A DNA stretch of 64,000 nucleotides from contig OY727093.1 of the NCBI GenBank assembly GCA_963402885.1, positions 12,721,501 to 12,785,500 on the forward strand. Reading direction: 5' to 3'. Below, one piece after another: positions 10,204-55,129 of the stretch. This DNA is from Antedon bifida. Its lineage: Eukaryota; Echinodermata; Crinoidea; Comatulida; Antedonidae. The position numbers and the translations under genes are program-made. Positions within the stretch are counted from its first letter, which is position 1. Every line of letters starts with the position of its first letter. Under the pieces are notes generated by a model. The model had not been told where the DNA came from and did no database searches. It worked only from the letters and a program-made list of their open reading frames with translations.

Positions 10204-10435
10204 AGATCCAGGAAAGCTCAAGGCATGCAACTTTCAATTAAGTTCTTAAGCTAATATTATATCTTTTGCATTAGATTTACCAAACTTTAGGAAAAGGGCA
10301 GGCTGGTAAGAGATGCATGATGCGACTGTAGTTTGTATCGATACACCTGAGCATTTCACAAACAAAATTATGCAAATTCATTTCTGCTAATTTTAAATAA
10401 AACATAATTGTTAAAATATAACAGCAATAAAATAC

Positions 10436-10965
10436 TCACCACAAGTAATTGTGTGTAAGATTTGTGTGTGTAGTTTGTACGTGTTCGTCATCTCCTAGAT
10501 CTGCACGTGGTATCTTCACTGATCGTAACGCACGGCTATAAGCTTCAGGGTCTTCTGTACGAACAGTTTGCTATAAAATAATATATATAATAAAAAGTAC
10601 ACAATGATTAATGATATGATGGTCCCAAAGGAAATTACAATTGAATACCAATACAAAAGAGATTCAGAGTCTCCATGAAATCTGTTCGCTATTAAATAAA
10701 CAAAGTACAATGCTTTATTTGATTACCCTAGTCCCAAAGGAAATTACAAGATTTGAAATGTTATTGTCTGTTGTCTGTGGAAGTATAAAGTGAAAGTCTT
10801 TAAAAATTGTTTTAAAAAAATCACTAGAAAAGTAAAATAATCTTTTCAACTACAAATATAAAACAAAAAAAATACCTCAGGAATTGTTGTTCTTCGAGAA
10901 AAATCAGTAATTGGCATTTTGGTAGTACCTGAATATTCAATTAAAGACCTGGCACGTACATGCTC
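10436..10965 (-). other. mucin exons 50-51: cytoplasmic tail
   Basis: Exon 50 (10965-10876, phase 0-0, 30 codons) and exon 51 (10570-10436) end in NYLW then TGA. The tail is hydrophilic with several Tyr (IEYSG, EAYSR) and no recognised domain. The final TGG-TGA overlaps a good donor sequence TTGTG|GTGAGT, so a further exon cannot be excluded. Confidence 0.7.
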
Positions 10966-13900
10966 CTGCATATTACAGTTTTCAGAAGAAAAAATATTGC
11001 ATCAGAATTTTTGTAAGTGTGTCGTTGTCACTTAAGTATACTGTCATAAAATTAACTTAATATCACGTGACACTCCATTACTGTTTTTTTCTGACTGATA
11101 GTAATGTTTACAAATGTTACTTACATTTAAATGTTCAGATTTTCTCATTTTCCCGACAACCTCAGCTAAATGTTGCATTCGTTCATGATCTATTGCACCC
11201 ACAATATGAATATTATCACTACCACTAGTACTCCTATACTCCCAGTCAGCAGTTGATGAGGCATCATCAGCAAAATGGTTATCGTATGATGATGATGATG
11301 ATTTTCGTTTTCTAGTGTATTCTCTTTTACGAACAATGAGGTAATAGATAACAAGAGCAGCTAAGATTGCAGCTAGAAGGGCAGCCAGCACAATAAAGGC
11401 AATAAATATGCCTAGTGGTTCTTCTTCTTCTTCATCTTTATCTATGTAAAAAACATAATGTATTTCTGAGTCTGGATATGAATATTAAAGTAAACAAGCA
11501 TTCTTGTGAATGGATTTCCACATATTTGGACAGTGATTTAATTCGCTATTAGTAATATAAGGCTGACATATGAATGATAATAAAACAGTTACCTTCACAA
11601 TATGTTCCACTGAATCCATCTATGCAACTATAAACAAACAATATTACAATGAAAAGTTAGTATTTTGATTTTCTAGTGTAAACATTTAAAAAATTATGTT
11701 TAACAAAACTTGTGTAGAAACTGATCAACCTACTGTAGGGATGACCTTTATGATAACATTATTTTTTACCGCACTGTTAATAAGATACATAGTATTTACT
11801 GGCAAATCTTTACAAAACCATCATCAGCAGCACAACTTCCTTCATTTTCACAGTCAAAACCAGTGCAAGGATCAGTAACATTTAATTCTGAAATAAAAAT
11901 ATTAAAAGCATTAAGAGTAAAAATGCTAAAAATAAATACTAATAAAAAAAATTTTGGTCAAACAGAAGAATTCATACTTATATCAATTCCATTGTTGTCA
12001 AAATAAATAATAATCAGAGAGCTGTTAATTATTTTGGTGTTTTTCAATTTTATTTACAGCTTTAACATCTATGTTTTATCTTTTATCATGTTTTTTTTCT
12101 GTTGTTCAGTCTATTGCAAATGAATAAATACAATATTTAAATTAACAATAGTGTGAACTCACCTGTAGCTGTATTGCTAATCAAATATTCACTCTTGTTC
12201 AGATACGAGATTACATCATCTTCATCTATTGATGAACTTACATCAAAGTATACTATATAGATACCAATCACACTACCCTCCTTAAAACCCAAGACCTCAT
12301 TACCTTCATATGTAGTTTCATTTTTGAATGTATTGTTAATCTGTGAATAACAAGTATAATTTATTAGTAAATTGTTACTTTATCATGTAAAAAAATAATT
12401 ATGCAAATTTGGGGTACATTTTTGCAATACTAATTACAGAACAATCATTATGTCAGAACTTTTGTAGTAGCATATAGTATATAGGCAAAATAGATACAGT
12501 ATAAAAAAAAAAATGATTTTAGTCAACTATGCGATTTTTATTCAATATAAATTTGTAATTGAAGTTTAAATAAAAACGATATTTTATTAAAACATCACAA
12601 TAAATTATTTCTTTATATCATGGTTTTTAGCAAATGAAGCAATTTTCAATACAATCACAAATGTATTTGTGGGTTCAAAATAAGTGCATTATTGAGGCTG
12701 TTTGAACTATTCTATAGTTTTACAAATTAAACTAATTTGAATAAAAAATAAAGTTACTGTAACATACCGAAATGGATAGATTTTTGGATAACTCTATATA
12801 TTCGTCTGTAGAATTATTGCTTAGGGAATCTTTCCAGACTGCATCCTTCAAAGTAGATTCTGTTCTGAAAGTCTTTACCTCTATAATATCAAAATTATAT
12901 AAATAATTAACAGAAGAAAACAACTAGCATTTTAGGCATATTAGTACATCTGCGTCACGTCATTATGCATGAATGAAAAGATCAGCATGACAGCAATTTA
13001 AAGGGGGGTTCCGGGTTTAAAATGAATAGTAAAAAATGTAAAATATATTTGTTTGTCTCTTGAACGGTAAAAGTTTCAATTTATATAAGCGCCCAGTGAA
13101 GCAGAACGAAGGCTGTGAAATGAGGCCAGATTACAAGTGCAGCTACGGCGATATGACACTGTGTTACAGAATAGGAAATTCGTGAAATGGTCAATCTTCC
13201 GACGACTCGTTATCATTAACCATATCAATTACTTTTGTAAAATTATACTTATCTGATGTAATTTTAGTCGGTCTTCCCATTTATGAAGTCAATTTTCTAT
13301 GAAAATTTATCAAAACAGTGAAAACTTAGATATGTTTGCACTTTACGTTTGCCGATTTTCGCACTGACTTAGGGAAAGCCTTCAAGATCAATGAAGCGTA
13401 ACGTATACATTCCTGCTGAGCGAGGAGAGCGAGACGACGATACACGTGCTCTCTCTGCCCATGCCTGGCATCGTCACGTGATAAGCATATACAGATACAA
13501 TACCAAACTGGTCGGATCGAGTATACCCCGTCTATAATCACAACATGAACGATGTACAGTATTTGATTGAAGGTCAACTCGACCTACCGGAATGGTATAG
13601 ATAATATAGCTCGAATGAGAGAGATATATTTGTAAACATAAGTATTGCTAATTTTAACAAGTGAAAAGGCCTGGTAGTATCAATTCGCATAGGGTCTACT
13701 ACACTAGCTAGCTCAATGTTTAACTGGACCGGATCGGCCAGGTCTCCTTCCTACTACCTGGTCTACTTGCTTGATGCAGTATCCGCTTTTTTGGAGAGTA
13801 AACTAGGCCTATTTTAGGCCTACTTAGACGATCGGGACACCATACGTGCGGACGGCGATCGGACCTTGTTTTGCCTCAATATTTACAGCCGATTTTGTAG

Positions 13901-16900
13901 AACGCTTTAGGTTTAGATTGTTTAGGAGTTTGGTTGATAGGATGGGTTTGGATCCACTGAGTTTTGTTATTTATGGGCCAATCGTTTAGTAGTAGGCTAG
14001 CTAGGCCCATGATGGGCCCCAATGTTTTAAAACGTAGGGTAGCCATCGTGGCATGGAATCCCTAGTCAGAATGGCTCTCACCCATGACAAAAAATGATTT
14101 AGGCTAGGCCTAGCCTAGTACTTGAAGCCGATAATACGATCTGTACTATTCGAGGTATAAAAATAGTATAACTGTATACAATCTACATATAATCTGTACT
14201 AAATTTTGTATTTCATTAAATGTCAAATAAATATATGCTGCTACTGTTAATATTACACTTTAGGTAGAAAATCTACAAAAAATGTATTTTACAATGATCG
14301 GGTGGTCGTCGTTTGACAGGGGAGAGGGATGTAAACACAACGTACATAACGTCGCGAGTTTGGAATCCACCGATGACGTGATTTTGTGAATATCTCATGA
14401 ATATTAATGAGCTTCCCTAAGCTGCTGAAAAACAGACTTTCCATAAATTTACCCTAAAATGTATATGAAATTTATTTTTTTTAATTTCTCGTTATTACTT
14501 CTTCATTCTGACATGTCTATATTGTTATAATATTTTTTATTTAATAAATAAACGATATTTAAAAGCAATTTTAAACCCAGAATCCCCCTTTAAGGTGTCA
14601 GCATCATTTTAACATATATTTTTCAAAATGTTCACAATATAAATAATAACTGTATAACTACTGTACTAAATTGTCTAATCTAATAATAGTTTATTCCATT
14701 GTGATAACAACAGACAGTACCATAGAATGAATTGTAGTGTTTAAAATTTTAATCCCTTAATTTGAGATTTTATAGCTTTAAAACTCAGGATCAGTACTTT
14801 TGGCCAATTCTCGGTACTGTATCTATTCCCGAAGTATCATAGGAATATTTGGTATTACAACATCACAAGTGTTTCACAAGTATCTAGTAGTAACCTAAAA
14901 TAATACAGGAACCAAATGTAATGTAAATGAGATGCTGTATTACCAAATATTCATATGATACGTTGGAAATGGATAGTATGTGGAAATACAGCACTGGGAA
15001 TTGGGCGGTATGTTCAGAATAGTTTGTGTAGACAGAGCTTTAGTGCTGCATCAAAGTATGGATTCTTGAACATACCTGTACAATTGTATCTAGATTGATA
15101 AACATATCCAACACTACAAGAGCAATAATAGCTCCCATCTTCATTTACACAAACACTTTCTTCAAGATTACAGTAGTTTTCATCATTACACTCATCTACA
15201 TCTATTACATTGAAAAAGAAAAATAAAAAAATATTATTTGTACACTATACTGTAAAACATATTACTAGTGTTCAATGACAAATCAACTATATCATACAAA
15301 GCACATCTTACCCTCACAAATGTTATTATTGTTACCAACATCCGAGTATCCTTTTTTGCAATCAGCACATGAATAATTATCATGCCCTTCAAATACACAA
15401 TTAAGATAGTTCCTTTCCAAACAATCATCTGTATCTTCATTGCATGGATTTATAACTAAAAAACAAATATAATACAAAAGTTTTGATGGAGTGTATTTCA
15501 TTGGTTATAAAGATTGCACTATAATGCACTACAAAAGTGGATCTTTCATTAGAATTAAATTATTGCAAAAAACAAACCTAATAACAGCCCTAATGAGTTA
15601 TTGTTTTAGCCTTTTAGGCGTCTTAATCAAAATATTATATATGAAATGACAAACCTGGTTCCTCAACGATTAAGCTACTGCGAACCACATGGCTATTTGG
15701 AGGTAGTATATCGTAATTTCTACCAGTCAGCCCATTCAAAAACAATAGCCTTGTCTCGTTGAGTGTGAGATGAGTTTCCGATATTAAATCAATGCGGAAG
15801 GTGACATTCACTACTGAATTGTACAGGACATATGACAAAACTTGTGTGTCCAAATACTGATTGCTTTCTGTACTATTTTTGTACAGGTCAAGAACCTATT
15901 TTAAAGATAGATAAATTATTGGAAAACAAATCTAAAAAAAAGATGTAAAATTTGAATTACTAGAAATGCAAAAATTGGTTTAGAATCCTATGTGCTTTTT
16001 AAACTACCATTGTGGATCAATACAGGAGCGTATTAAAGTAAAGTTAGCATAACGAAAGGGATACTGTAGCTTTTTAGATAACTGCTTATATTATTCTAAA
16101 GAATTATTGGTTAGGGAATTTTTCCATTTATCATCTTTGAATTACAATGGTGGATCAACACAGAAGGGTATTGCTTATCAAAACCCCCCCCCCCCCCCAA
16201 CCCTCCACACCCTAAACCCTGGCCATTTTCCATCCATTACACCCTGCCACCCTCTCAATCACTTACACAAACGCACTTGAATGGCCCTTAAAAAACAATA
16301 GCTTCATAAAACTCTGACTACCAGTATTAAATATTATCTGTTATACTCACATCCTTTGCTAGGCCTGACTTAAGTGTATCCTCATTATCGATGTTTACAG
16401 ATCCAACTCTGTTACCTTTCACATCAGTAAAATTAACACTTAATTCTTGGGTAACCACACCTAAAACAACACAATTAAAATAATAAATATAAATAATTAA
16501 AATAACAATTACTTTATCATGACACAATGTTGTATTGTGAGCAGTATAAAATGAAAATTACGATAAGGTAAAGTAAATACAGTAAACAGTAGAGTACTAT
16601 AATATATAGCAAGAAATTAATTTCATATTATAGATATTATACAAATGTATACAAACCTGTACATGGTAAACTGGCATTATCACGATAATAACCAGTTTGG
16701 CAAATACACATATAACTACCAATTATATTGTCACACTTTTCAAAAATGGTAGCATTACAATGGTTGTTTTTACATTCATCAACATCTGTAAATTAAAATT
16801 CCAGTATTAGTAATCATATTCTAATGCTCAGTTCTAAAATTCTTTGTGCCCTAAAGACAACAATAATAATATTGTAATGAATAAATGTATTCATTGTAAT

Positions 16901-19900
16901 CTAACAACTGGGTCTCTAGCTCAGAAATCAGGTTATGGGATTCATACATCATATATGGAATGTAACAATTAACAAAAAAACTATATAATGTGCATAGAAT
17001 TATTATAATTAAAAACATATATTAAAATATTAGACATTAATGGTAAATAAACTTACCAACACAATATGTGCCGTTGCCAATAAATCCATCTTTACAACCA
17101 CATGTATATGAACCATCGATGTCTTTGCAATTGGCATAATCATCACAGTCATTCAGATCTTCAATTGCACACTCATTAATATCTAAGATTATTAATTGAC
17201 AAGAAAACACATTGTGTGTTACATACAAATGTGTTTTCAATTTATTTTAAATTGGTTAAAATATAACAGACAATACACATTAATATTCAAACATGAATGG
17301 GTAGAATTAGGTGCAATCTTAAATTTAGTTTAGAGTACAACCCACCCCTCCTTCTTTCAAATACAAGAAACCACTGATTTATATAAATCTGACAATTATA
17401 AAAGTACCATAACAAACATACACTTAAAATTCAATGATGTAGAAAAGATAGAGACATTTACTTGTTAACACCTTATATAAACTTACTTTCACAACTGATT
17501 CTTGCATCATTTGCATCATAGCCATCTTTACATGTACAAGAGAAACTTCCAATAGTGTTGTTACAATTAGAGTTTTCAGGACATGACAATTCTTGTTCAC
17601 ATTCATTTGTGTCTGATCGTAAAAAAATATAAAAAATTGAGGTACTAAATTACAATATTATTTACTAATCAAATTTATCTGCACAGGTTCAAGACACTCC
17701 ATGGCCATATATCTGGTGGTACTTTGCTACAAGTCTTTTAGGAAAAGGACTTTACTCACCGATACAAATGTCATTTTCATTTTTATGATATCCTGTAATA
17801 CAGTTACATAAATAAGAACCAACTGTATCAATACAATCGGCATGTTCACCACATGGTCCAGGGGAACGAGAACACTCATCATAGTTTTCACAATATGATC
17901 CATTACCATAAAAACCCTCATTGCAGACACAAACAAATGAACCTGCTGTATTTTCACAACTGGCATTTGAGTTGCAAGGTAGTTGATTACACTCGTCAAT
18001 GTCTGTAATTATCAATTATAACAAATATTTACAAGCAATACAAAATAAAGTTAAACTAACTAATTACAAAAGCATAAATTACATTTTTTCATAACATTGC
18101 TTAACATTAACAGTTAGTTTTAGTTATCTGTAATGCGCCTTGAATTTTTGATATGGCACAATATAAATGGTTTATGTATGTATAAATACAAATCTAGGGA
18201 AAATAGTAGTTTGTATCAAATCATTATACTGTAGCATAGAATAGAGCAAAAAAATTCAAATTAACATACATAGACAGATAGAAATCCCCTGGTGTTTTAC
18301 ACACAAATACATTCGACAAGTCATTAGATTAAATGGGGTCCTTCTGGTGTTGTATTGGATAGTAAACCAGGAGTGTATATTAAATAATTGTACAATATTG
18401 TTGCAGCTAGGTGCAGTTCATTGCATGCTAAGTAAATGTTTGGTTAACTGCACTGCATGTCATTTAAAAGGATAGGTAGAATAAGAGATGCTTGTAATTT
18501 TACTTTTGCATTTTTGGATTGCAGTGTTAATTATTACCTTTACAATTTTTTCCTTCAGCGTCTATTTTTTCATATCCAGGTTCACAGTTGCATGTATAAT
18601 TTCCTGGTATGTTTTCACAAACACTGTAATCACCACATATGTCCACTGAATTACACTCATCCATATCTATATATGGTAAGATGAAAGGTAAAGGTCTAGT
18701 TGCATTATGGGAGTAGGTTTCCATACATGTTTCATCCAAAGAATTACTGGGGTAATAATGTGAAGCAGCTTTGTGCATTAAGCATTATATAAGTGTAGTT
18801 AATGCTGTTTTATACAAGTGAATTATCATCTATATTTGATAATCAATGTCCAGCCAAAATCTGCATACGATCTATAATTTTCAACATCATTGCCACTATC
18901 ATTATTATCATCTCTTTATTATCATTTCTATTCTTAAGTTACAAGATTTTTTGCATAATTAAAATAATCAGTACTGAATAAATATCATTGTCTGTACATA
19001 AATTGATCTATTTTTGGTCAGTGTTGTAGACATAGTGAATTGGTAGTACCTGCGCATTCATTGCCATTCTGTATAAATCCAGCATTACATTCACACTCGT
19101 AGGACCCATTTGTATTAACACATGTGCTGTTATTAACATTATGGCACTGTGATTTGTCACATTCATTGATATCTGAGAAAAAAAATGATATCAAAATATA
19201 ATATTCTTATAGGGCCTATATAAAATATTTCTTTTCATTTGGGGAATATTATGTGAAAGCAGGTTTGTAAGCAACTGTGATACTACCCCATCTGTTTTTA
19301 ACAGCTTGGTACATGTATGCAATCATGCCTCACTAGCACCTTAGTGTAAATAATGTATAATAAATGTACACAACGTTTTTTAAAACACTGTCATTGAGAA
19401 ATTCATCTGAATCAAAAATATAAAGACATCATCTTATACCTAATAATACAGTATTATGTTTCACGATTGACATTTTAAAATGGCGAAATATAGGTTCCAC
19501 ATAGGATAGGATATTTCATAATATATTGTCTGGTTTGATGAGCTTACCTAAGCAGCCATAACCATCACCAGTGAAACCAGCTAAACAAGTGCAATTGAAT
19601 CCACCATCAGTATTTGTACAAACTGAATTACTTGAACAGTTGTTTGTACCATCAAGACATTCATCAATTTCTACAATAAAGTATAATTAAATGATATATA
19701 AAATGTGTGCAAAGAACTAGGCCTAATTAACAAAAAATTGAAAGCACTGAGTGAAGTATTTGGCAAAATATTGCTATAGAGGGCGCATGTTGATATTTCG
19801 GCCCATAATATCAATTTTTATTTTTTTTATTGTAAAGTTATTTTAGGCATATTATAGGCATATGCATGTTCTCTAAGTATAATTTAGAGAACTTAGTTGT

Positions 19901-43900: not shown

Positions 43901-46900
43901 GTAGTTGTTTCACCTGTTGTCGGTTCTTCTTTCGTTGAAATGTTATTGTCCGTTGTGGAGTCAAACAGAGTGGTAGACTCTTCAGTTGTATCCTCAGAAG
44001 TCATACCTTCACTTGAAGTTGTATCAGCAGTTGTAGTTTCTCCAGTCGTTGATATCTTCTCATCTGTATACAGTCTGGTTGTTGTATCCTCAGAAGTCAT
44101 AACCTCACTTGATGTTGTATCAACTGTTGTTGGGTTTTCTGTCATTAATATATCATTCTCTGTTGTAAAATCAATCTCAGTGGTAGACAGTTTGGTTGTT
44201 GTATCCCCAGAAGTCATATCTTCACTTGTAGTTGTATCAACTGTTGTCGGTTCTTCTGTTGTTGTTATTTTCTTGTCCGTTGTAGAGTCAAACAGAGTGG
44301 TAAACACTTCAGTTGTATGTTCGGAAGTCATACCTTCACTTGAAATTGTATCAGCAGTTGTAATTTCTCCAGTCGTTGATATCTTTTCATCTGTAGTTAA
44401 ATCAACCACAGTGGTAGACAGTTTGGTCGTTGTATCTTCAGAAGTCATAACTTCACTTGAAGTTGTATCAACTGTTGTAGGTTTTTCTGTCGTTGATATT
44501 TTCTTGTCCGTTGTGGAGTCAAACAGAGTGGTAGACAATTCAGTTGTATGTTCGGTAGTCATACCTTCACTTGAATTTGTATCAGCAGTTGTAATTTCTT
44601 CAGACGTTGATATCTTCTCATCTGTAGTTAAATCAACCACAGTGGTAGACAGTTTGGTTGTTGTATCCTCAGAAGTCATAACTTCACTTGAAGTTGTATC
44701 AACTGTAGTTGGTTTTTCTGTCGTCAATATATCATTCTCTGTTGTAAAATCAACCTCAGTGGTAGACAGTTTGGTTGTTGCATCCTCAGAAGTCATATCT
44801 TCACTTGTAGTTGTATCAACTGTTGTCGGTTCTTCTGTCGTTGATATTTTCTTGTCCGTTGTGGAGTCAAACAGAGTGGTAGACAATTCAGTTGTATGTT
44901 CGGAAGTCATACCTTCACTTGAATTTGTATCAGCAGTTGTAATTTCTTCAGACGTTGATATCTTTTCATCTGTAGTTAATTTCACCACAGTGGTAGACAG
45001 CTTGGTTGTTGTATCGTCAGAGGTCCTATCCTCACTTGAAGTTGTATCAACTGTTGTCGGTTCTTCTGTTGTTGATATTTTATTGTCCGTTGTGGAGTCA
45101 AAGAGAGTGGTAGACAATTCAGTTGTATGTTCGGAAGTCATACCTTCACTTGAAATTGTATCAGCAGTTGTAATTTCTTCAGACGTTGATATCTTCTCAT
45201 CTGTTGTAAAATCGACCTCAGTGGTAGACAGTTTAGTTGTTGTATCCTCAGATGTTATATCTTTACTTGTAGTTGTATCAACTGTTGTCGGTTCTTCTGT
45301 CGTTGATATTTTCTTGTCCGTTGTAGAGTCAAACAGAGTGGTAGACAATTCAGTTGTATGTTCGGAAGTCATACCTTCACTTGAAATTGTATCAGCAGTT
45401 GTAATTTCTTCAGACGTTGATATCTTCTCATCTGTAGTTAATTTCACCACAGTGGTAGACAGTTTGGTTGTTGTATCCTCAGATGTTATATCTTCACTTG
45501 TAGTTGTTTCACCTGTTGTCGGTTCTTCTTTCGTTGAAATGTTATTGTCCGTTGTGGAGTCAAACAGAGTGGTAGACTCTTCAGTTGTATCCTCAGAAGT
45601 CATACCTTCACTTGAAGTTGTATCAGCAGTTGTAGTTTCTCCAGTCGTTGATATCTTCTCATCTGTATACAGTCTGGTTGTTGTATCCTCAGAAGTCATA
45701 ACCTCACTTGATGTTGTATCAACTGTTGTTGGGTTTTCTGTCATTAATATATCATTCTCTGTTGTAAAATCAATCTCAGTGGTAGACAGTTTGGTTGTTG
45801 TATCCCCAGAAGTCATATCTTCACTTGTAGTTGTATCAACTGTTGTCGGTTCTTCTGTTGTTGATATTTTCTTGTCCGTTGTAGAGTCAAACAGAGTGGT
45901 AAACACTTCAGTTGTATGTTCGGAAGTCATACCTTCACTTGAAATTGTATCAGCAGTTGTAATTTCTCCAGTCGTTGATATCTTTTCATCTGTAGTTAAA
46001 TCAACCACAGTGGTAGACAGTTTGGTTGTTGTATCTTCAGAAGTCATAACTTCACTTGAAGTTGTATCAACTGTTGTAGGTTTTTCTGTCGTTGATATTT
46101 TCTTGTCCGTTGTGGAGTCAAACAGAGTGGTAGACAATTCAGTTGTATGTTCGGTAGTCATACCTTCACTTGAATTTGTATCAGCAGTTGTAATTTCTTC
46201 AGACGTTGATATCTTCTCATCTGTAGTTAAATCAACCACAGTGGTAGACAGTTTGGTTCTTGTATCCTCAGAAGTCATAACTTCACTTGAAGTTGTATCA
46301 ACTGTAGTTGGTTTTTCTGTCGTCAATATATCATTCTCTGTTGTAAAATCAACCTCAGTGGTAGACAGTTTGGTTGTTGCATCCTCAGAAGTCATATCTT
46401 CACTTGTAGTTGTATCAACTGTTGTCGGTTCTTCTGTCGTTGAAATTTTCTTGTCCGTTGTGGAGTCAAACAGAGTGGTAGACAATTCAGTTGTATGTTC
46501 GGAAGTCATACCTTCACTTGAATTTGTATCAGCAGTTGTAATTTCTTCAGACGTTGATATCTTTTCATCTGTAGTTAATTTCACCACAGTGGTAGACAGC
46601 TTGGTTGTTGTATCGTCAGAGGTCCTATCCTCACTTGAAGTTGTATCAACTGTTGTCGGTTCTTCTGTTGTTGATATTTTCTTGTCCGTTGTGGAGTCAA
46701 ACAGAGTGGTAAACACTTCAGTTGTATGTTCGGAAGTCATACCTTCACTTGAAATTGTATTAGCAGTTGTAATTTCTTCAGACGTTGATATCTTCTCATC
46801 TGTAGTTAATTTCACCACAGTGGTAGACAGTTTGGTTGTTGTATCGTCAGAGGTCATATCTTCACTTGTAGTTGTATCAACTGTTGTCAGTTCTTCTGTT

Positions 46901-49900
46901 GTTGATATTTTATTGTCCGTTGTGGAGTCAAACAGAGTGGAAGACAATTCAGTTGTATGTTCGGAAGTCATACCTTCAATTGAAATTGTATCAGCAGTTG
47001 TAATTTCTTCAGACGTTGATATCTTCTCATCTGTTGTAAAATCGACCTCAGTGGTAGACAGTTTGGTTGTTGTATCCTCAGATGTTATATCTTCACTTGT
47101 AGTTGTATCAACTGTTGTCGGTTCTTCTGTCGTTGATATTTTCTTGTCCGTTGTGTAGTCAAACAGAGTGGTAGACAATTCAGTTGTATGTTCGGAAGTC
47201 ATACCTTCACTTGAAATTGTATCAGCAGTTGTAATTTCTTCAGACGTTGATATCTTCTCATCTGTAGTTAATTTCACCACAGTGGTAGACAGTTTGGTTG
47301 TTGTATCCTCAGATGTTATATCTTCACTTGTAGTTGTTTCAACTGTTGTCGGTTCTTCTGTCGTTGATATTTTCTTGTCCGTTGTGGAGTCAAACAGAGT
47401 GGTAGATACTTCAGTTGTATCTTCAGAAGTCATACCTTCACTTGAATTTGTATCAGCAGTTGTAGTTTCTCCAGTCGTTGATATTTTCTCATCTGTATAC
47501 AGTCTGGTTGTTGTATCCTCAGAAGTCATAACCTCACTTGATGTTGTATCAACTGTTGTTGGGTTTTCTGTCATTAATATATCATTCTCTGTTGTAAAAT
47601 CAATCTCAGTGGTAGACAGTTTGGTTGTTGTATCCCCAGAAGTCATATCTTCACTTGTAGTTGTATCAACTGTTGTCGGTTCTTTTGTTGTTAATATTTT
47701 CTTGTCCGTTGTAGAGTCAAACAGAGTGGTAAACACTTCAGTTGTATGTTCGGAAGTCATACCTTCACTTGAAATTGTATCAGCAGTTGTAATTTCTTCA
47801 GACGTTGATATCTTCTCATCTGTTGTAAAATCGACCTCAGTGGTAGACAGTTTAGTTGTTGTATCCTCAGATGTTATATCTTTACTTGTAGTTGTATCAA
47901 CTGTTGTCGGTTCTTCTGTCGTTGATATTTTCTTGTCCGTTGTAGAGTCAAACAGAGTGGTAGACAATTCAGTTGTATGTTCGGAAGTCATACCTTCACT
48001 TGAAATTGTATCAGCAGTTGTAATTTCTTCAGACGTTGATATCTTCTCATCTGTAGTTAATTTCACCACAGTGGTAGACAGTTTGGTTGTTGTATCCTCA
48101 GATGTTATATCTTCACTTGTAGTTGTTTCACCTGTTGTCGGTTCTTCTTTCGTTGAAATGTTATTGTCCGTTGTGGAGTCAAACAGAGTGGTAGACTCTT
48201 CAGTTGTATCCTCAGAAGTCATACCTTCACTTGAAGTTGTATCAGCAGTTGTAGTTTCTCCAGTCGTTGATATCTTCTCATCTGTATACAGTCTGGTTGT
48301 TGTATCCTCAGAAGTCATAACCTCACTTGATGTTGTATCAACTGTTGTTGGGTTTTCTGTCATTAATATATCATTCTCTGTTGTAAAATCAATCTCAGTG
48401 GTAGACAGTTTGGTTGTTGTATCCCCAGAAGTCATATCTTCACTTGTAGTTGTATCAACTGTTGTCGGTTCTTCTGTTGTTGATATTTTCTTGTCCGTTG
48501 TAGAGTCAAACAGAGTGGTAAACACTTCAGTTGTATGTTCGGAAGTCATACCTTCACTTGAAATTGTATCAGCAGTTGTAATTTCTCCAGTCGTTGATAT
48601 CTTTTCATCTGTAGTTAAATCAACCACAGTGGTAGACAGTTTGGTTGTTGTATCTTCAGAAGTCATAACTTCACTTGAAGTTGTATCAACTGTTGTAGGT
48701 TTTTCTGTCGTTGATATTTTCTTGTCCGTTGTGGAGTCAAACAGAGTGGTAGACAATTCAGTTGTATGTTCGGTAGTCATACCTTCACTTGAATTTGTAT
48801 CAGCAGTTGTAATTTCTTCAGACGTTGATATCTTCTCATCTGTAGTTAAATCAACCACAGTGGTAGACAGTTTGGTTCTTGTATCCTCAGAAGTCATAAC
48901 TTCACTTGAAGTTGTATCAACTGTAGTTGGTTTTTCTGTCGTCAATATATCATTCTCTGTTGTAAAATCAACCTCAGTGGTAGACAGTTTGGTTGTTGCA
49001 TCCTCAGAAGTCATATCTTCACTTGTAGTTGTATCAACTGTTGTCGGTTCTTCTGTCGTTGAAATTTTCTTGTCCGTTGTGGAGTCAAACAGAGTGGTAG
49101 ACAATTCAGTTGTATGTTCGGAAGTCATACCTTCACTTGAATTTGTATCAGCAGTTGTAATTTCTTCAGACGTTGATATCTTTTCATCTGTAGTTAATTT
49201 CACCACAGTGGTAGACAGCTTGGTTGTTGTATCGTCAGAGGTCCTATCCTCACTTGAAGTTGTATCAACTGTTGTCGGTTCTTCTGTTGTTGATATTTTC
49301 TTGTCCGTTGTGGAGTCAAACAGAGTGGTAAACACTTCAGTTGTATGTTCGGAAGTCATACCTTCACTTGAAATTGTATTAGCAGTTGTAATTTCTTCAG
49401 ACGTTGATATCTTCTCATCTGTAGTTAATTTCACCACAGTGGTAGACAGTTTGGTTGTTGTATCGTCAGAGGTCATATCTTCACTTGTAGTTGTATCAAC
49501 TGTTGTCAGTTCTTCTGTTGTTGATATTTTATTGTCCGTTGTGGAGTCAAACAGAGTGGAAGACAATTCAGTTGTATGTTCGGAAGTCATACCTTCAATT
49601 GAAATTGTATCAGCAGTTGTAATTTCTTCAGACGTTGATATCTTCTCATCTGTTGTAAAATCGACCTCAGTGGTAGACAGTTTGGTTGTTGTATCCTCAG
49701 ATGTTATATCTTCACTTGTAGTTGTATCAACTGTTGTCGGTTCTTCTGTCGTTGATATTTTCTTGTCCGTTGTGTAGTCAAACAGAGTGGTAGACAATTC
49801 AGTTGTATGTTCGGAAGTCATACCTTCACTTGAAATTGTATCAGCAGTTGTAATTTCTTCAGACGTTGATATCTTCTCATCTGTAGTTAATTTCACCACA

Positions 49901-52900
49901 GTGGTAGACAGTTTGGTTGTTGTATCCTCAGATGTTATATCTTCACTTGTAGTTGTTTCAACTGTTGTCGGTTCTTCTGTCGTTGATATTTTCTTGTCCG
50001 TTGTGGAGTCAAACAGAGTGGTAGATACTTCAGTTGTATCTTCAGAAGTCATACCTTCACTTGAATTTGTATCAGCAGTTGTAGTTTCTCCAGTCGTTGA
50101 TATTTTCTCATCTGTATACAGTCTGGTTGTTGTATCCTCAGAAGTCATAACCTCACTTGATGTTGTATCAACTGTTGTTGGGTTTTCTGTCATTAATATA
50201 TCATTCTCTGTTGTAAAATCAATCTCAGTGGTAGACAGTTTGGTTGTTGTATCCCCAGAAGTCATATCTTCACTTGTAGTTGTATCAACTGTTGTCGGTT
50301 CTTTTGTTGTTAATATTTTCTTGTCCGTTGTAGAGTCAAACAGAGTGGTAAACACTTCAGTTGTATGTTCGGAAGTCATACCTTCACTTGAAATTGTATC
50401 AGCAGTTGTAATTTCTCCAGTCGTTGATATCTTTTCATCTGTAGTTAAATCAACCACAGTGGTAGACAGTTTGGTTGTTGTATCCTCAGATGTTATATCT
50501 TCACTTGTAGTTGTATCAACTGTTGTTGGTTTTTCTGTCGTTAATATATTATTCTCTGTTGTTGCTTCTTCCGCCGTCGTTGTATCTTCATACATTGTTG
50601 AGGTAAACTGAGTAGTAGACAATTCAGTTGTTGTCTCTTCGGAAGTCATATTTTCAGTCATAGTTACAAAAATTGTATTTTTTTCTGTTGTGATTCCTGT
50701 AAAGTAACAATAACATTAATGAAATGAATGTTTTGTTAAACTTACAGAGAATAAGCATAAGATACATTTATGATATCCATGTCTGTCCAAGTTTTTTTTT
50801 GTATTCTAATTTTATTAAGGATTCTTGACTATACAAAATGTCTTATACCATACCATATTTTATCTAACTTACAATCAATTCATTTATTATTATTTATTTA
50901 TGTACCTATAAATGTATAATAAATATTTCATTTGTAAATATCGTATTTATTCGAACAAACGCCCAGCTTTTAATAAATGCCCCGCCACATGCATTATATA
51001 CACAATCTTAAATTAAAACACATTTCTATTTGTAGTAGAACTAATTGACTGCCATGATCAACAATTGACCAAGCATTTTGATACCATTTGTTTTATTGTA
51101 TTTTATCACCTGTTGTTGGGTTTTCTGTTGTTGATATATCATTCTCTGTTGTAAAATCAATCTCAGTGGTAGACAGTTTGGTTGTTGTATCCCCAGAAGT
51201 CATATCTTCACTTGTAGTTGTATCAACTGTTGTCGGTTCTTTTGTTGTTAATATTTTCTTGTCCGTTGTAGAGTCAAACAGAGTGGTAAACACTTCAGTT
51301 GTATGTTCGGAAGTCATACCTTCACTTGAAATTGTATCAGCAGTTGTAATTTCTCCAGTCGTTGATATCTTTTCATCTGTAGTTAAATCAACCACAGTGG
51401 TAGACAGTTTGGTTGTTGTATCCTCAGATGTTATATCTTCACTTGTAGTTGTATCAACTGTTGTTGGTTTTTCTGTCGTTAATATATCATTCTCTGTTGT
51501 TGCTTCTTCCGCCGTCGTTGTATCTTCATACATTGTTGAGGTAAACTGAGTAGTAGACAATTCAGTTGTTGTCTCTTCGGAAGTCATATTTTCAGTCATA
51601 GTTACAAAAATTGTATTTTTTTCTGTTGTGATTCCTGTAAAGTAACAATAACATTAATGAAATGAATGTTTTGTTAAACTTACAGAGAATAAGCATAAGA
51701 TACATTTATGATATCCATGTCTGTCCAAGTTTTTTTTTGTATTCTAATTTTATTAAGGATTCTTGACTATACAAAATGTCTTATACCATACCATATTTTA
51801 TCTAACTTACAATCAATTCATTTATTATTATTTATTTATGTACCTATAAATGTATAATAAATATTTCATTTGTAAATATCGTATTTATTCGAACAAACGC
51901 CCAGCTTTTAGTAAATGCCCCGCCACATGCATTATATACACAATTTTAAATTAAAACACATTTCTATTTGTAGTAGAACTAATTGACTGCCATGATCAAC
52001 AATTGACCAAGCATTTTGATACCATTTGTTTTATTGTATTTTATCACCTGTTGTTGGGTTTTCTGTTGTTGATATCTCATTCTCTGTTGTAAAATCAACC
52101 TCAGTGGTAGACAGTTTGGTTTTTGTATCCTCAGATGTTATATCTTCACTTGTAGTTGTATCAACTGTTGTTGGTTCTTTTGTCGTTAATATCTCATTCT
52201 CTGTTGTTGCTTCTTCCGCCGTCGTTGTATCTTCATACATTGTTGAGGTAAACTGAGTAGTAGACAATTCAGTTGTCTCTTCGGAAGTCATATTTTCAAA
52301 CACAGTTACAACAATTGTAGTATATTCTGTTGTTGTGATTCCTGTAAAGTAACAATAACATTAATGAAATGAATGTTTTTTTTAAACTTACAGGGAATAA
52401 GCATAAGATACATTTATGATATCCATGTTTTTTTTTGGATTCTAATTTTATTGAGGATTATTTTTGACTATACAAAATGTCTTATACCATACCATATTTT
52501 ATCTAACTTTCAATCAATTCATTTATTATTATTTATTTAAGTACCTATATGTGTTTACCATAAATGTATAATAAATATTTCATTTGTAAATACCGTATTT
52601 AGCCTATTCCAACAAACGCCCCGCTTTGAATAAATGCACACATTTCTATTTGTAGTAGAATTAATTGACTGCCATGATCAACAATTTACCAAACATTTTG
52701 ATACCATTTTTATTATATTTTATCACTTTTTCTATATTAATTGTGTTGTACTTGTTATATTTATTTACTACACATGTTACCATAATATTACACTTAAAAA
52801 ATAAACGCCTCCCCCACGTTGTAAAACGTCACTGTGCTCTAACAAAAATATGTGTATTGATTTATGTGTTCTTAATTTATTTTATTGGATTATTAAAGTC

Positions 52901-55129
52901 AACCAATCAGACACGCCAATATTAGGCTCCGCCGCTGCATAAAAAGCTGTACCGCCCCAAAGATAATCATTGAATAATGGGCAAATCCTTCACCTATGGT
53001 AAATAGTTTTGGCGTATGGAGTTTATCATCAGGGAAGCTTCCCTGGTGTGTATCTATATATAAATTATGGTTAATTCTGACATAGGCGAGCACAATGGAA
53101 AAACTTCGGTACTAATCTTCGCCTTGGATATCTACCTTATCTATCTCAGATGTTCCGCGAAACGTAGATTTGATAACATTAGTTTTCAGTACTACGCTAT
53201 TGTTCCATATTTCTATCTTAGGAAGATATTATAAAGGGTTTTATAAGAAATTTTCTGATTTCAATCGGTAAATTTAAACTCTACGTGCGGTAGAAGTAAT
53301 TTCCGGGTTCACGGTAAGGTGTGTCAATCACCTTGCAAGTTCCCTGCATGGTTGGTTTCAACCAGGGAGTTGTTTTTCAACTAAGTTGGCCGTTGGTGTT
53401 TGGTGGCGATAGCCATTTTGGTTTTTGTTTGTTTTCGGACCGCGCGTGTGAAGGTATAGTATTACATACAGATCAAATTAAATATATTCATAAAACATAG
53501 GAGTAAATTGTGGGAAATAATTATATAAAATGACATCGAGAGAATTGACGTCATTGATGTCTTTTGTTTGAAATCGAATGAAACCCCGATAGCTGAGTTG
53601 TTGAGTAAGCTGCCAGGACTTTATGTATACTGTGCGCTATCTGTGTCCCGTCGGGACCCTGGGATACTTCTGCCCATGTTGCAAGCCGTCTAAAACGTCT
53701 TCCTTCTTAGGCCAAAACGGCTCACTGTGTCGCGGAATAATGTATTAATTATACCAATTAGGATGGTATTTATTTGAATAAATGCCCGGAACACCTCCCC
53801 AATAAAACATCAATTAAAACAATTATCGCCACTCCCCCCCCCCCCCCCCGCCCCCATCCAAATACCATCTAATAAACGCCCATCCACATTTATACACACA
53901 ATATTGTATTATATTTATAACACAATTATACTATTTTTAGTAGATTTCTTCGGATTGTTATCTACATACATTTACCAAGCATTTGTTATTCTTTTTTACC
54001 ACTTTTCATATCTACAATAAACACTTTACGTAAATTAATTATCTAAGACACTGTGAAACAGGTTAGTGAGTAGGTTTAGTTTTACGAATATCAAAAGCAT
54101 TTAAATAATGGTAACCATAACCAGAATGTCCTTCTAAAACTTTTTACCCGAGTCATTATCATTTCGAGAACCATCGTCTACACGTCCTAGAGGGGGAGCG
54201 AGTGAAGCCAGCTCACCCTCTAGTAGATGAAGAATTGTTTGATTAGGGAGTACGTTTGTCGGCGGCTGTACGACGAAGTTTTTGGGAAATTAGAAATGTT
54301 GTTTACTGGAATGTTTGGGTATGTGACTTAGTGAGTAACGCCTCGGAATATGAACAGTAATTATATTTTTGTTCTGTACATCAGTAGGCTACGGATTTTG
54401 TTCTGAAATAAAAGTTGAATGATCGACAAGCTAAAGCAACTACAGAAGGAAAACTGGATTCAATCATAATATATCTACATCCTCAAAACAGTTATGTATT
54501 TAATAGCCAATAGACCCTGCTTTATGATTAAATAGAGCATTCCAGACTATACACAATCTTTACAGTACTACTGATTGTCAAACCTAAATTATTTATAATA
54601 AATCATTATTTATTAAATTATTAAATAGAATATCAATTAAAAAAAAGCATTAGTTAATGAAGAAAGAACAAGAAATATTTCTTGTTAATATTGTTCTTCA
54701 CAAAAATAGTATCAATTTATTATTAATCTGGTTAAAATAATAAAATAATGTCTAAACCCGACCCATAGAAAAGACAAAAAGGGTAATTAGACTGGAATCG
54801 GTGCTGGCAGAAAATGGATGTCAGCACCATTCTGGGCGATATGGCATGACTGTGGGTCTCAGAGGCTGAATATAGCCTATACATTTATACCCACATCCAG
54901 CAAGTGGTAATGTAAGTAGAATCAATGTGAAACAACACTTCTTGTGGACTACAATGTGTGGGTCTACTAAACCTGTTTCGTCAGTCGGGGACCTCCGTGT
55001 CAGTCTGGAAAAACCCCAAACTATTTGTATATTCATAGTTAAATCATGAAACTTACCTCTAACTACTATATTTTGTTGAGAGCAAATGAAAATGCCAACA
55101 ACCATCACAATGATGTATTTTAACTCCAT
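10436..55129 (-). CDS. giant MUC4-like transmembrane mosaic mucin, 51 coding exons, about 7,592 residues
   Basis: Exons in transcript order: 55129-55057, 52341-52048, 51634-51110, 50696-35994, 35832-35713, 34466-34344, 34161-33985, 33650-33480, 33162-33052, 31945-31823, 30826-30681, 30296-30129, 29799-29647, 29384-28952, 28214-28047, 27695-27576, 27320-27127, 27009-26925, 26738-26553, 26291-26187, 26088-25819, 25626-25474, 25176-24992, 24717-24537, 24307-24185, 23919-23791, 23126-23007, 22650-22408, 22021-21908, 21608-21486, 21152-21033, 20662-20534, 20074-19940, 19670-19548, 19172-19050, 18666-18538, 18002-17760, 17612-17487, 17182-17057, 16785-16657, 16460-16351, 15895-15655, 15455-15312, 15201-15076, 12880-12768, 12340-12163, 11887-11800, 11627-11593, 11441-11125, 10965-10876, 10570-10436. 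All have GT-AG borders and compatible phases, and the total is exactly divisible by three. Predicted role: a large cell-surface glycoprotein with an O-glycosylated stalk. NIDO-AMOP-VWD-EGF-TM order is the MUC4 signature; LDLa, sushi and SEA are additions. Single-gene status rests on phase continuity and domain order, not on a transcript. The last exon may splice on at 10440 instead of ending at TGA. Confidence 0.88.
11125..11441 (-). other. mucin exon 49: transmembrane helix and start of cytoplasmic tail
   Basis: An acidic run (DKDEEEEE) is followed by a hydrophobic helix ([17 protein letters not shown]...YYLIV) and then a basic stop-transfer stretch ([10 protein letters not shown]) and a Ser run. 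Type I orientation follows from the signal peptide and the basic inner side. The Ser run is encoded by a (GAT/ATC)n microsatellite at about 11290. Confidence 0.92.
11593..11887 (-). other. mucin exons 47-48: juxtamembrane EGF split by a phase-2 intron
   Basis: Exon 47 (11887-11800) encodes [14 protein letters not shown] and FVKIC, and exon 48 (11627-11593) completes it with [12 protein letters not shown]. The His codon is split (CA|T). It is the only phase-2 intron found in the gene. Confidence 0.85.
12163..12880 (-). other. mucin exons 45-46: SEA domain 2
   Basis: Exon 45 (12880-12768, [18 protein letters not shown]) joins exon 46 (12340-12163) in phase 0. Exon 46 contains [18 protein letters not shown], which keeps the Gly-Ser-Val of the SEA autoproteolysis site (G^SVVV). 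It lies close to the membrane, as in MUC1-type SEA modules. Confidence 0.78.
12998..14593. mobile_element. 1.6-kb TTAA-flanked terminal-inverted-repeat element (non-autonomous, piggyBac-like signature)
   Basis: Ends match as inverted repeats (AGGGGGRTTCYGGGTTTAAA, two mismatches in 22 bp) and each is bounded by TTAA (12998-13001 and 14590-14593), the target-site duplication typical of piggyBac-type elements. The 1,588-bp interior has no transposase-like frame. It is richer in CpG and AGGCCT/CTAG palindromes than its surroundings. It sits in the intron between mucin exons 44 and 45. Confidence 0.75.
14804..15004. mobile_element. 201-bp fold-back MITE
   Basis: Imperfect inverted repeat. The left arm starts CCAATTCTCGGTACTGTAT and contains GTATCATAGGAATATTTGGT; the right arm, reversed, starts CCAATTCCCAGTGCTGTAT and contains GTATCATATGAATATTTGGT. 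It lies immediately beside the TTAA element in the same intron. Confidence 0.7.
15076..15455 (-). other. mucin exons 43-44: two EGF modules between the SEA domains
   Basis: Exon 43 (15455-15312) has [21 protein letters not shown]; exon 44 (15201-15076) begins [11 protein letters not shown] with YYCSCSVGY. Phase 1-1 exons as in the main array. Confidence 0.85.
16074..16150 (-). pseudogene. decayed copy of a SEA-domain exon inside the exon 41-42 intron
   Basis: On the minus strand the segment aligns with exon 45 (12880-12768), sharing TGGAAAxATTCCCTAA, CAATAATTCT and AGTTATC blocks. Its translation would read WKNSL then NNSLE followed by an in-frame TAA, against [13 protein letters not shown] in the live exon. 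It is therefore a dead duplicate of a SEA first exon. Confidence 0.75.
16184..16198. repeat. poly(C) tract
   Basis: Fifteen C in a row followed by further C-rich sequence to about 16260, inside a mucin intron. The minus (transcribed-sense) strand is G-rich. Confidence 0.9.
16657..24717 (-). other. mucin exons 24-40: array of about 20 EGF modules
   Basis: Seventeen exons, each carrying one six-Cys EGF module except exons 24, 28 and 37, which carry more. Most begin D-I-(D/N)-E-C and contain C-x-N-x4-(Y/F)-x-C-x-C, the calcium-binding form, e.g. exon 34 ([12 protein letters not shown]) and exon 37 ([10 protein letters not shown] and [12 protein letters not shown]). All internal borders are phase 1. 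Exon 29 (22021-21908) lacks the DIDEC start, so its acceptor at 22022 was chosen from frame. Expected to form a stiff calcium-bound rod above the membrane. Confidence 0.9.
22711..22929 (-). other. unidentified open frame in a mucin intron
   Basis: A 72-codon minus-strand open frame fills most of the 356-bp intron between exons 27 and 28, with noticeably higher GC than the intron average and a Cys pair in [15 protein letters not shown]. It has no splice sites joining it to the mucin frame. A fragment of a dispersed element is the likeliest explanation, but I do not recognise it. Confidence 0.3.
24725..24744. repeat. (TA)n microsatellite
   Basis: About ten TA units just upstream (minus strand) of the exon 24 acceptor. 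Confidence 0.85.
24992..25626 (-). other. mucin exons 22-23: Ig/cadherin-like linker running into an EGF
   Basis: Exon 22 (25626-25474) encodes [15 protein letters not shown] and [15 protein letters not shown], like the edge of an Ig- or cadherin-type beta sandwich. Exon 23 (25176-24992) continues with [18 protein letters not shown] and ends in [11 protein letters not shown], the first half of an EGF completed in exon 24. The fold assignment is tentative. Confidence 0.7.
25819..27320 (-). other. mucin exons 17-21: VWD domain and its C-terminal extension
   Basis: Exon 17 begins [20 protein letters not shown], a textbook VWD start. Exon 19 ends KGLLG and exon 20 begins [10 protein letters not shown], the Gly-x-Tyr-Asn calcium-site region. 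Exon 21 ([11 protein letters not shown], then FVPVF and [14 protein letters not shown]) matches the segment that follows VWD in MUC4 and SUSD2 relatives. The cleavage site GDPH, which in MUC4 lies here, is present in the motif; whether it is cut is unknown. Confidence 0.9.
27779..27838 (-). repeat. tRNA-derived sequence
   Basis: Minus strand reads TTAATTGGTAGAATGTCAGA and later GGATCTTGATCCCAGG, corresponding to the D-arm/anticodon region and T-arm of a tRNA with mutations in both boxes. SINE head or tRNA pseudogene in a mucin intron. Confidence 0.45.
28711..28791 (-). repeat. tRNA-derived sequence with intact anticodon stem-loop
   Basis: Minus strand contains TCTGC-ATATCAA-GCAGA, a perfect 5-bp stem with a 7-base loop, then CCAGGTTCGAATCTCGG, a B-box-type T-arm. 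The acceptor stem does not close. Flanked by TA-rich simple sequence (28799-28809), as expected for a SINE. Confidence 0.5.
28952..30826 (-). other. mucin exons 11-14: NIDO domain
   Basis: Four exons joined in phase 0. They contain [16 protein letters not shown], then [64 protein letters not shown] and [10 protein letters not shown]. This is the nidogen/MUC4 extracellular NIDO fold with its APFWTDVD and QSALITDG landmarks. Exon 14 runs directly on into AMOP. Confidence 0.9.
31265..31280. repeat. (CA)n microsatellite
   Basis: Eight CA units in a mucin intron. Confidence 0.9.
31570..31715. mobile_element. 146-bp hairpin MITE
   Basis: The left arm CTATGTCTACATTATCAA and the reversed right arm CTCTGTCTACACTATCAA pair. 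Inner segments GTGATGTGCC and GGCACATCAC also pair, so nearly the whole element can fold on itself. A related end (TGTGTAGACAGAGCTT) occurs at about 15023-15038 in another mucin intron. Confidence 0.65.
32031..32063 (-). ncRNA. degenerate hammerhead-ribozyme-like motif of the Penelope element
   Basis: Minus strand: CTGATGA, then a 15-base palindromic hairpin (GAGAATAGTATTCTC), then GTAACATGTC. This follows the hammerhead order CUGAUGA / stem II / GAAA / short stem III / UC, with GAAA changed to GTAA and an extra base before stem II. Penelope-like elements are known to carry minimal hammerheads. The change in the conserved A and weak stem I make activity unlikely. Confidence 0.4.
32031..32600 (-). 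mobile_element. Penelope-like retroelement fragment (C-terminal GIY-YIG region and 3' end)
   Basis: A minus-strand frame (about 32474-32109) reads [19 protein letters not shown], then [15 protein letters not shown] and [15 protein letters not shown]. This matches the GIY-YIG endonuclease end of Penelope-like elements (VVYK...C..YIGE...HL...KE..HI.W..P). A further piece of the upstream region (YCKGVTIKL, then FKISKLF) lies at about 32460-32530 in a broken frame, so the element is dead and 5' truncated. It ends in a conserved hairpin region at 32031-32063 that resembles a hammerhead core. It lies in the intron between mucin exons 9 and 10. Confidence 0.8.
33480..34161 (-). other. mucin exons 7-8: two sushi (CCP) modules
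   Basis: Exon 7 (34161-33985) shows [23 protein letters not shown] and PEC. Exon 8 (33650-33480) shows [25 protein letters not shown] and SPLC. Both match the four-Cys sushi pattern with its conserved Trp/Gly positions, although exon 8 lacks the usual Trp before the last Cys. Confidence 0.85.
34344..35832 (-). other. mucin exons 5-6: two LDL-receptor class A modules
   Basis: Exon 5 (35832-35713) has six Cys with [19 protein letters not shown], and exon 6 (34466-34344) has six Cys with [17 protein letters not shown] followed by DNEDE. The C-terminal acidic cluster that binds calcium is evident in exon 6 and weaker in exon 5 (GDGYDES). Each module is exactly one phase 1-1 exon. Confidence 0.9.
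36018..38130 (-). repeat. mucin repeat family B (47-residue, 141-bp modules)
   Basis: About 14 modules containing [19 protein letters not shown] and [20 protein letters not shown]. Consecutive modules are 141 bp apart. A three-module block recurs at 423 bp (the variant GTAGCGGTAGAAGCGACAG occurs near 36772 and again near 37195), a higher-order repeat. Confidence 0.88.
43480..46680 (-). repeat. 1,599-bp tandem duplication nested with the 2,619-bp one
   Basis: About 43480-45080 and 45080-46680 match at offset 1,599 bp (533 codons), for example 43603/45202 and 44341/45940. It differs at scattered bases, so it looks somewhat older than the 2,619-bp duplication that overlaps it. Confidence 0.75.
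45120..50357 (-). repeat. 2,619-bp tandem segmental duplication inside exon 4
   Basis: Positions 45120-47738 and 47739-50357 match at a constant offset of 2,619 bp (873 codons). Every site I compared by eye was identical, including rare variants such as TTTACTTGTAG at 45271/47880 and the TTGAAATTTTC variant at 46440/49059. Similarity breaks just left of 45119 and near 50414. The length is a multiple of three. Confidence 0.85.
50850..51070. repeat. dispersed element fragment (GTATTTATTCGAACAAACGCCC type) in intron 3, recopied in introns 2 and 1
   Basis: The intron segment with TATTCGAACAAACGCCC, ATGCCCCGCCACATGC and the AATTGACTGCCATGATCAAC tail recurs at about 51790-52010. It recurs again, more diverged, at about 52570-52720, with related pieces at about 53760-54010. 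The first copies are explained by the exon-intron duplication; the last implies an independent insertion of the same family. Confidence 0.6.
51110..52341 (-). other. mucin exons 2 and 3: tandem copies of the 5' end of exon 4
   Basis: Exons 52341-52048 (294 nt) and 51634-51110 (525 nt) start with almost the same sequence as exon 4 (shared peptide NMTSEETT...[13 protein letters not shown]) and end at PTTG with donor CAACAACAG|GTGATA. All three share an acceptor context (TTTACAG|GAATCACAAC). Both exons are phase 1-1 and a multiple of three, so either can be skipped without a frame change. They encode Thr/Ser/Glu/Asp-rich mucin sequence. Confidence 0.85.
53030..53045. repeat. 16-bp perfect palindrome
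   Basis: CAGGGAAGCTTCCCTG, reading the same on both strands. It is similar in flavour to the CCAGGGA hairpin at 2657-2697. Confidence 0.85.
53834..53855. repeat. poly(C) tract
   Basis: Sixteen C, one G, then five C, within mucin intron 1. Confidence 0.9.
55057..55129 (-). other. mucin exon 1: signal peptide
   Basis: ATG at 55129 opens a peptide with hydrophobic core [13 protein letters not shown], then a phase-1 donor (AGAG|GTAAGT). An in-frame ATG 30 nt upstream (55159) would add ten residues; the inner Met is preferred because it gives a normal-length signal peptide. The next exon starts 2.7 kb away at 52341. Confidence 0.8.

Follow-up and report, generated by a model that had tools for sequence, protein, structure and literature searches.

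A candidate crinoid membrane mucin that joins a MUC4-like core to a membrane-proximal SEA domain

Results

Based on six-frame translation and exon chaining, we identified one gene on the minus strand of the window, the whole 64,000-nt stretch of Antedon bifida DNA that was analysed. The gene runs from a start ATG at 55129 to a stop at 10436, the same strand, start and end that an earlier note on this DNA had given. Our model consists of 50 exons with a summed length of 22,689 nt, which is divisible by three, and encodes 7,562 amino acids with no internal stops, in agreement with the roughly 7,600 residues claimed before. The previous count of 51 exons and 22,779 nt, likewise with GT-AG borders and divisible by three, was close; the 90 nt by which it exceeds ours could be one weak exon. 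All 49 introns of the model (98 to 2,715 nt) have GT-AG borders, and 40 of them are in phase 1, a predominance that fits the expectation for a mosaic extracellular protein. The predicted product begins with a signal peptide and repeats, continues with two LDLa, two Sushi and two EGF domains, NIDO, AMOP, VWD, C8-3 and an EGF array, and ends with a degenerate SEA-like stretch, two EGFs, a SEA domain containing GSV, one further EGF, a transmembrane helix (TM) and a cytoplasmic tail.

The model was constructed by dynamic programming, with exons chained on codon bias, splice sites and phase, and doubtful joins were inspected by eye. Because the first chain had been trained on exons already seen, a held-out chain was run on the region 25300-10400; its coding statistics were taken from exons 5-22 alone, its background triplets from every intron of the model, and its splice matrices were generic. 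This chain reached a score of 330 with 28 exons and reproduced 24 of the 28 exons of the model exactly, exons 41 and 42 included; in each of exons 29, 30, 45 and 50 one border came out elsewhere. The corresponding scores were 23.0 for the opposite strand and between 0.2 and 13.3 for 20 order-1 Markov resamples, so the exon chain exceeds chance expectation.

Three exons of the first automatic chain were dropped for low support, all of them ahead of the exon count: 54186-54148, 10774-10748, and 32428-32312, the last of which lies inside an open frame at 32112-32489 on the minus strand. This frame of 126 aa is located within an intron, had no Pfam match at E up to 0.1, and resembles a fragment of a Penelope-type GIY-YIG endonuclease or element.

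Hydropathy exceeded 1.6 in two regions only, at the two ends of the protein. Exon 1 (55057..55129, minus strand, as for all exons below) carries the start codon and a signal peptide, with a hydrophobic stretch at residues 5-24. Exon 49 (11125..11441) encodes the transmembrane helix, with the hydropathy maximum of 3.2 at residue 7426, and the beginning of a cytoplasmic tail of about 115 residues, which ends with the stop codon in exon 50 (10436..10570). An AATAAA is present downstream at 9809, and an alternative last exon around 10774-10718 is possible. Just 3' of the last exon, at 10079-10205, there is a short degenerate tandem repeat that is open on both strands. Beside the mucin gene, at 4087-7100, the plus strand carries exons of a CD38-like gene for an ADP-ribosyl cyclase (PF02267, E 4.9e-15 at 6852-7100; below cut-off, E 6.7e-4, at 4087-4356). 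Rfam scans at gathering scores and tRNA scans found nothing.

The amino-terminal part of the product is dominated by Thr/Ser-rich repeats in exons 2 (52048..52341), 3 (51110..51634) and 4 (35994..50696). Exon 4 is a giant exon of 14,703 nt and 4,901 residues, with no stop anywhere, in which repeat units of about 39 and 47 aa form higher-order arrays; its composition is 45.8% Ser+Thr, 20.1% Asp+Glu and 1.9% Pro. Exons 2-4 together encode 5,174 residues with 34% Thr, 12% Ser, 20% Asp+Glu, 1.9% Pro (1.7-2.0% in each of the three exons) and no Cys. Of 508 windows of 100 residues taken from the repeats, Ser+Thr exceeded 40% in 492, in accordance with the Ser/Thr part of the mucin (PTS-domain) definition. 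That definition also includes a proline content above 5%, a level exceeded in a single one of the 508 windows. The designation of the gene as a mucin is therefore borne out by its Thr/Ser-rich repeats (46%) but not by its proline content, and at 1.9% Pro with 20% Asp+Glu this repeat need not be as densely glycosylated as a classical mucin.

Repeat units differed from one another at rates of 0.113, 0.108 and 0.191 at codon positions 1, 2 and 3, counted over overlapping, non-independent pairs; such a third-position excess is expected if the frame is translated. The synonymous share of the codon changes was 0.301, slightly higher than the uniform expectation of 0.256, and amino-acid constraint on the repeat thus looks weak. 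Exons 2 and 3 are identical at 278 of 291 ungapped positions. Exon 3 agrees with the first part of exon 4 at 521 of 525 nt, and intron 2 with intron 3 at 411 of 413 positions. The 5' end of the repeat accordingly consists of duplicated exon-plus-intron units at 51110-52047 and 50172-51109. This near-identity suggests either that the array grew recently by exon-plus-intron copying, exon 3 being a recent duplicate, or that the assembly contains a duplication. The repeat at 46000-50694 (minus strand) scored 53.1 bits against PF24655 (DUF7645; cut-off 27) as a sum of weak stretches, none of which passes alone, and this score may be either compositional or the mark of a genuine repeat family.

Pfam searches of the spliced post-repeat product were conducted on exons 5-34 and 40-50, then on exons 35-40, with curated cut-offs applied per whole piece. 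The LDLa, Sushi, NIDO, AMOP and VWD domains proposed previously, along with EGF domains, were recovered over the curated cut-off on the joined translation. Exons 5-6 (34344..35832) encode two LDLa domains (PF00057, 28 bits against a cut-off of 24.1), exons 7-8 (33480..34161) two Sushi domains (PF00084, E 4.8e-8) and exons 9-10 (31823..33162) two calcium-binding EGFs (PF07645, E 5e-8), each family being matched in two stretches at E up to 1. NIDO and the beginning of AMOP follow in exons 11-14 (28952..30826; PF06119, E 6.5e-30), and AMOP is completed by the 3' part of exon 14 with exons 15-16 (27576..28214; PF03782, E 1.7e-9, 38.4 bits against 25). Exons 17-21 (25819..27320) contain VWD (PF00094, E 5.2e-15) and then, in exon 21, C8-3_MUC4 (PF23263, E 1.2e-9, 37.7 bits against a cut-off of 25). 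The VWD, at residues 5870-6093, has no Cys in its 224 residues and includes the single GDPH of the protein, at residue 5874. A PDB sequence search with the NIDO-VWD part matched chains of FCGBP, VWF, MUC2 and MUC5AC by way of the VWD. Exons 22-23 (24992..25626) encode an Ig/cadherin-like linker (Big_9, sub-threshold, E 0.053) and the start of an EGF, and exons 24-40 (16657..24717) tandem EGFs that are mostly calcium-binding (PF07645; nine stretches in exons 24-34 at E up to 1, and seven in exons 35-40 at E up to 0.1). The protein contains about 19 calcium-binding EGF domains in total.

One SEA domain was clearly recognized near the membrane. This domain, referred to here as SEA2, is encoded by exons 45-46 (12163..12880) and matched PF01390 over cut-off, with E 1.8e-8 in context and 6.4e-10 alone; the start of exon 45 is uncertain, as the held-out search placed that border at 12859. 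It is located between the EGF of exon 44 and a weakly matched EGF adjoining the membrane in exons 47-48 (11593..11887; PF07974, E 0.027), whose spliced product has six cysteines. Exons 43-44 (15076..15455) encode two EGF-like domains that separate SEA2 from an upstream SEA-like stretch; the one in exon 44 is an EGF_CA, and the one in exon 43 was called from its cysteine pattern and exon phase only. Aligned with the SEA of human MUC1, SEA2 reached a score equalled by 4 of 2000 shuffles, and its GSV at residue 7334 fell opposite the GSV of the MUC1 domain. As a bare string GSV is present at residues 6402, 6578, 7087 and 7334, and the last of these four is the only one inside a recognized SEA. 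The usual SEA cleavage-site sequence is GSVVV. In SEA2 the motif continues as G-S-V-I-G instead, and self-cleavage may consequently be slow or absent. A PDB sequence search with SEA2 returned no SEA structure and one unrelated match at E 2.8.

The upstream stretch, SEA1, is formed by exons 41 and 42 (16351-16460 and 15655-15895), both open and in phase, and appears to be a degenerate or strongly diverged SEA. Its product had no match in Pfam, even with E values up to 10 allowed, and none in NCBIfam, and its alignments with SEA2 and with the human MUC1 SEA were no better than chance (scores reached by 204 and 369 of 2000 shuffles, respectively). When exon 45 was joined to exon 42, the chimera gave a SEA match of 23.7 bits (E 5.3e-5), under the curated cut-off of 26.4. 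Exon 45 alone gave no SEA match, nor did exon 45 joined to any of eight scrambled versions of exon 42 (two scrambled by hand, six shuffled). The completion of the match by exon 42 and not by the controls suggests that exon 42 keeps a second-half SEA signal. The chimera of exon 41 with exon 46 gave no SEA match, leaving exon 41 without demonstrated SEA character, and exons 42 and 46 alone gave none either.

Within intron 41, at approximately 16053..16141 on the minus strand, we found a decayed SEA first-half exon that contains an in-frame stop and has TT at the position of the donor GT. It is identical to the exon 45 region at 70 of 93 aligned positions (E 5e-14), and its chimeras with exon 42 and with exon 46, in which the stop was written as X, gave no SEA match. 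The decayed exon is possibly a relic of domain loss. The likeliest reading of these sequences is that SEA1 is a former SEA whose first half has decayed, and that the remainder either persists as a diverged module or is skipped; omission of exons 41-42 (351 nt) preserves the reading frame. The two SEA domains claimed for this gene were therefore an overstatement: one is clear in Pfam, and the other, unrecognized as a product and tied to SEA ancestry by the indirect test of exon 42, is strongly diverged or partly decayed.

We searched the genome (315.6 Mb, 27 contigs) for related loci. Among the best candidates, which were scored, AMOP gave 18 exon matches on contigs C10, C13 and C14 and no match in the window itself, where AMOP was probably missed because it is split by introns. 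On C10 the matches comprise a tandem cluster of about five genes (G000:C10:28190001-28260000) plus one other place. The window domains were then compared with 14 stretches (140 kb) around the AMOP loci, with EGF matches left out. VWD followed by Sushi, the order of SUSD2 and Mesh, was found in three of the five C10 cluster genes and at both C13 loci. At 30.67 Mb on C10 there were NIDO, AMOP, VWD and C8-3 with no Sushi match, and at the C14 locus no window domain matched at E 1e-3. GDPH was present at five places in these stretches and weak TM-like segments at two; the best SEA matches there (E 0.36 and 0.72) are not credible. A genome-wide SEA search, in which an intron-split SEA is easily missed, yielded three matches, all of them outside both the window and the AMOP loci. 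By its predicted domain order the window gene, with EGFs after VWD, has the arrangement of MUC4, unlike its relatives with Sushi after VWD. The first 10 kb of contig C27 (15,844 bases) encode mitochondrial proteins and are 73% AT; AAA occurs there at nad5 and cytb positions where Asn is conserved, as in the echinoderm mitochondrial code, which few other groups share. The size and AT content of this contig are close to those of the mitochondrion of the feather star Comaster schlegelii (15,887 bp, 72.73% AT; PMC8820819), although a second crinoid has 67.84% AT (PMC10013537). These features point to an echinoderm and probably to a crinoid.

Discussion

The locus probably holds a single gene, whose product would be a type I membrane glycoprotein with the MUC4 arrangement (NIDO-AMOP-VWD-C8-3-EGF-TM) and a SEA domain placed between the last EGFs, a reading that includes the predicted cleavages and ancestry discussed below. 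The union of a MUC4 core with a membrane-proximal SEA in one gene, which the earlier note had put forward, is supported by the common reading frame and by Pfam domains in the corresponding order. Vertebrate MUC4 and the crinoid gene share a large Ser/Thr repeat exon, the order NIDO-AMOP-VWD, a Cys-free VWD with GDPH, C8-3_MUC4 after the VWD, and EGFs with one TM behind it. The human MUC4 VWD has been called unusual for its absent cysteines, and chicken is likewise (PMC1552070). Compared with vertebrate MUC4, the gene described here adds SEA2, LDLa, Sushi, a long EGF array and proline-poor acidic repeats.

Other membrane mucins resemble different parts of this protein. MUC3, MUC12, MUC13 and MUC17 have, like the crinoid gene, EGF, SEA with GSV, EGF and TM next to the membrane, and differ from it in that they have no NIDO, AMOP or VWD. 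Mesh contains AMOP, a VWD with GDPH and a TM, and also NIDO. To our knowledge, SUSD2 and Mesh carry Sushi after the VWD and have no EGF array and no SEA; in the crinoid protein, by comparison, Sushi lies in exons 7-8, before NIDO, and none directly follows the VWD. SUSD2 likewise shares AMOP, a VWD with GDPH and a TM with the present gene (PMC6696261).

Two cleavages can be proposed from the motifs of what is probably a giant coat protein tethered to the cell. Its repeats would carry O-glycans and make up a long, negatively charged brush over an epithelium. A first cut may fall at the GDPH of the VWD; cleavage at this motif has been described for both MUC4 and SUSD2, with a protease held responsible in MUC4 (PMC6696261). 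A second cut may separate G from S in SEA2, in the manner of MUC1 and MUC17; SEA cleavage is reported to yield a non-covalent heterodimer (PMC9578598). The two cuts would divide the chain into a mucin-like alpha part, a stub in the membrane and a middle part between them, and the middle part, if bound non-covalently to the stub, could allow the coat to be shed under force.

Three other explanations of the locus need to be weighed. The model could have merged two neighbours, in which case exons 1-4 would encode a secreted protein rich in repeats and exons 5-50 a membrane protein with NIDO, AMOP, VWD and SEA. The repeat exon is indeed far larger than every other exon, and the model was derived from genomic sequence. 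However, the gap between the repeat exon and the first LDLa exon is just 161 nt and forms a GT-AG intron with matching phase 1. Given that short gap and the in-phase joins, a split into two genes appears very improbable, and the second gene would have no signal peptide in the model, as hydropathy above 1.6 is confined to exons 1 and 49. A less remote prospect, which we still consider rather unlikely, is that the protein shares the MUC4 core but is biochemically no mucin, and is instead an acidic, Thr-rich glycoprotein with a matrix or adhesive role, in the skeleton or in attachment structures, for instance. The repeat composition (34% Thr, 20% Asp+Glu, 1.9% Pro) is in line with it, and in red coral skeleton one of the most abundant proteins is reported to be CR_2, a SUSD2-like protein classed as a mucin (PMC7853314). 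On the other hand, the TM with a cytoplasmic tail, the SEA and the membrane-adjacent EGF array point to a cell-surface coat, as does the Ser+Thr level above 40% in 492 of 508 repeat windows.

The third explanation concerns the number of SEA domains and is the strongest of the three, with a probability that we place somewhat under one half: exons 41-42 could be a dying SEA, skipped or non-functional, which would leave a single membrane-proximal SEA. It is favoured by the absence of Pfam matches (E up to 10) to the product of exons 41-42, by the chance-level alignment of SEA1 with SEA2 (204 of 2000 shuffles), by the decayed first-half exon in intron 41 with its stop and missing donor GT, by the failure of the decayed exon with exon 42 or 46 and of exon 41 with exon 46 to match SEA, and by the frame-neutral length of 351 nt. 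Nevertheless, exons 41 and 42 both have open frames, the held-out search returned them with the same borders, and the chimera of exons 45 and 42 reached 23.7 bits (cut-off 26.4) whereas its controls had no match. The single gene with a MUC4 core and a SEA near the membrane is the reading that we retain below.

The earlier statement that MUC4 has no SEA holds for vertebrate MUC4, but the combination of MUC4 with SEA is already known in sea anemones (PMC9080433). According to that source, SEA is found in every transmembrane mucin except MUC4, and four sea anemones, Actinia tenebrosa among them, have mucin4-like proteins with a C-terminal SEA; it cites Zaretsky and Wreschner 2013 for the loss of SEA in MUC4. 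The anemone mucin4-like proteins, like the gene described here, combine NIDO, AMOP and VWD with a TM and a C-terminal SEA in a single chain, and some have CUB, ZP or FN3, with LDL and sushi unmentioned in the main text of that paper (PMC9080433). The MUC4-plus-SEA combination is thus known in cnidarians and is not new. The crinoid protein differs from the anemone proteins in its LDLa and Sushi before NIDO, in the EGFs around its SEA and in the second SEA-like stretch. SEA has also been reported in some echinoderm syndecans (PMC10381214), and the domain as such is therefore known in the phylum. Among the matches listed in the open-licence literature, we met no echinoderm MUC4-like protein with SEA and, in proteins of this kind, no LDLa-Sushi before NIDO, no EGF-SEA-EGF-EGF-SEA-EGF order with one decaying SEA and no acidic proline-poor repeat.

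Taken together, the present gene and the anemone cases suggest that a MUC4-type ancestor had a SEA that was later lost in vertebrate MUC4, and such an ancestral SEA is plausible. In its full form this scenario is tentative, and we would give it slightly less than an even chance: an ancestor that preceded the divergence of cnidarians and bilaterians would have had NIDO-AMOP-VWD, a membrane-proximal SEA and both GDPH and GSV sites; echinoderms would retain this design, with one of two SEAs apparently decaying here, and vertebrate MUC4 would be the end point of SEA loss. It is possible that SEA was instead gained independently in anemones and echinoderms.

Membrane mucins are usually split into MUC4, with VWD and GDPH, and the SEA types, and the deuterostome gene described here has both. 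In combination with the cnidarian reports, it makes the hypothesis of SEA loss in MUC4 testable by phylogeny. The protein would also offer a natural case for comparing both kinds of mucin cleavage in one chain, and its acidic, proline-poor repeat tests how far the definition of a mucin stretches.
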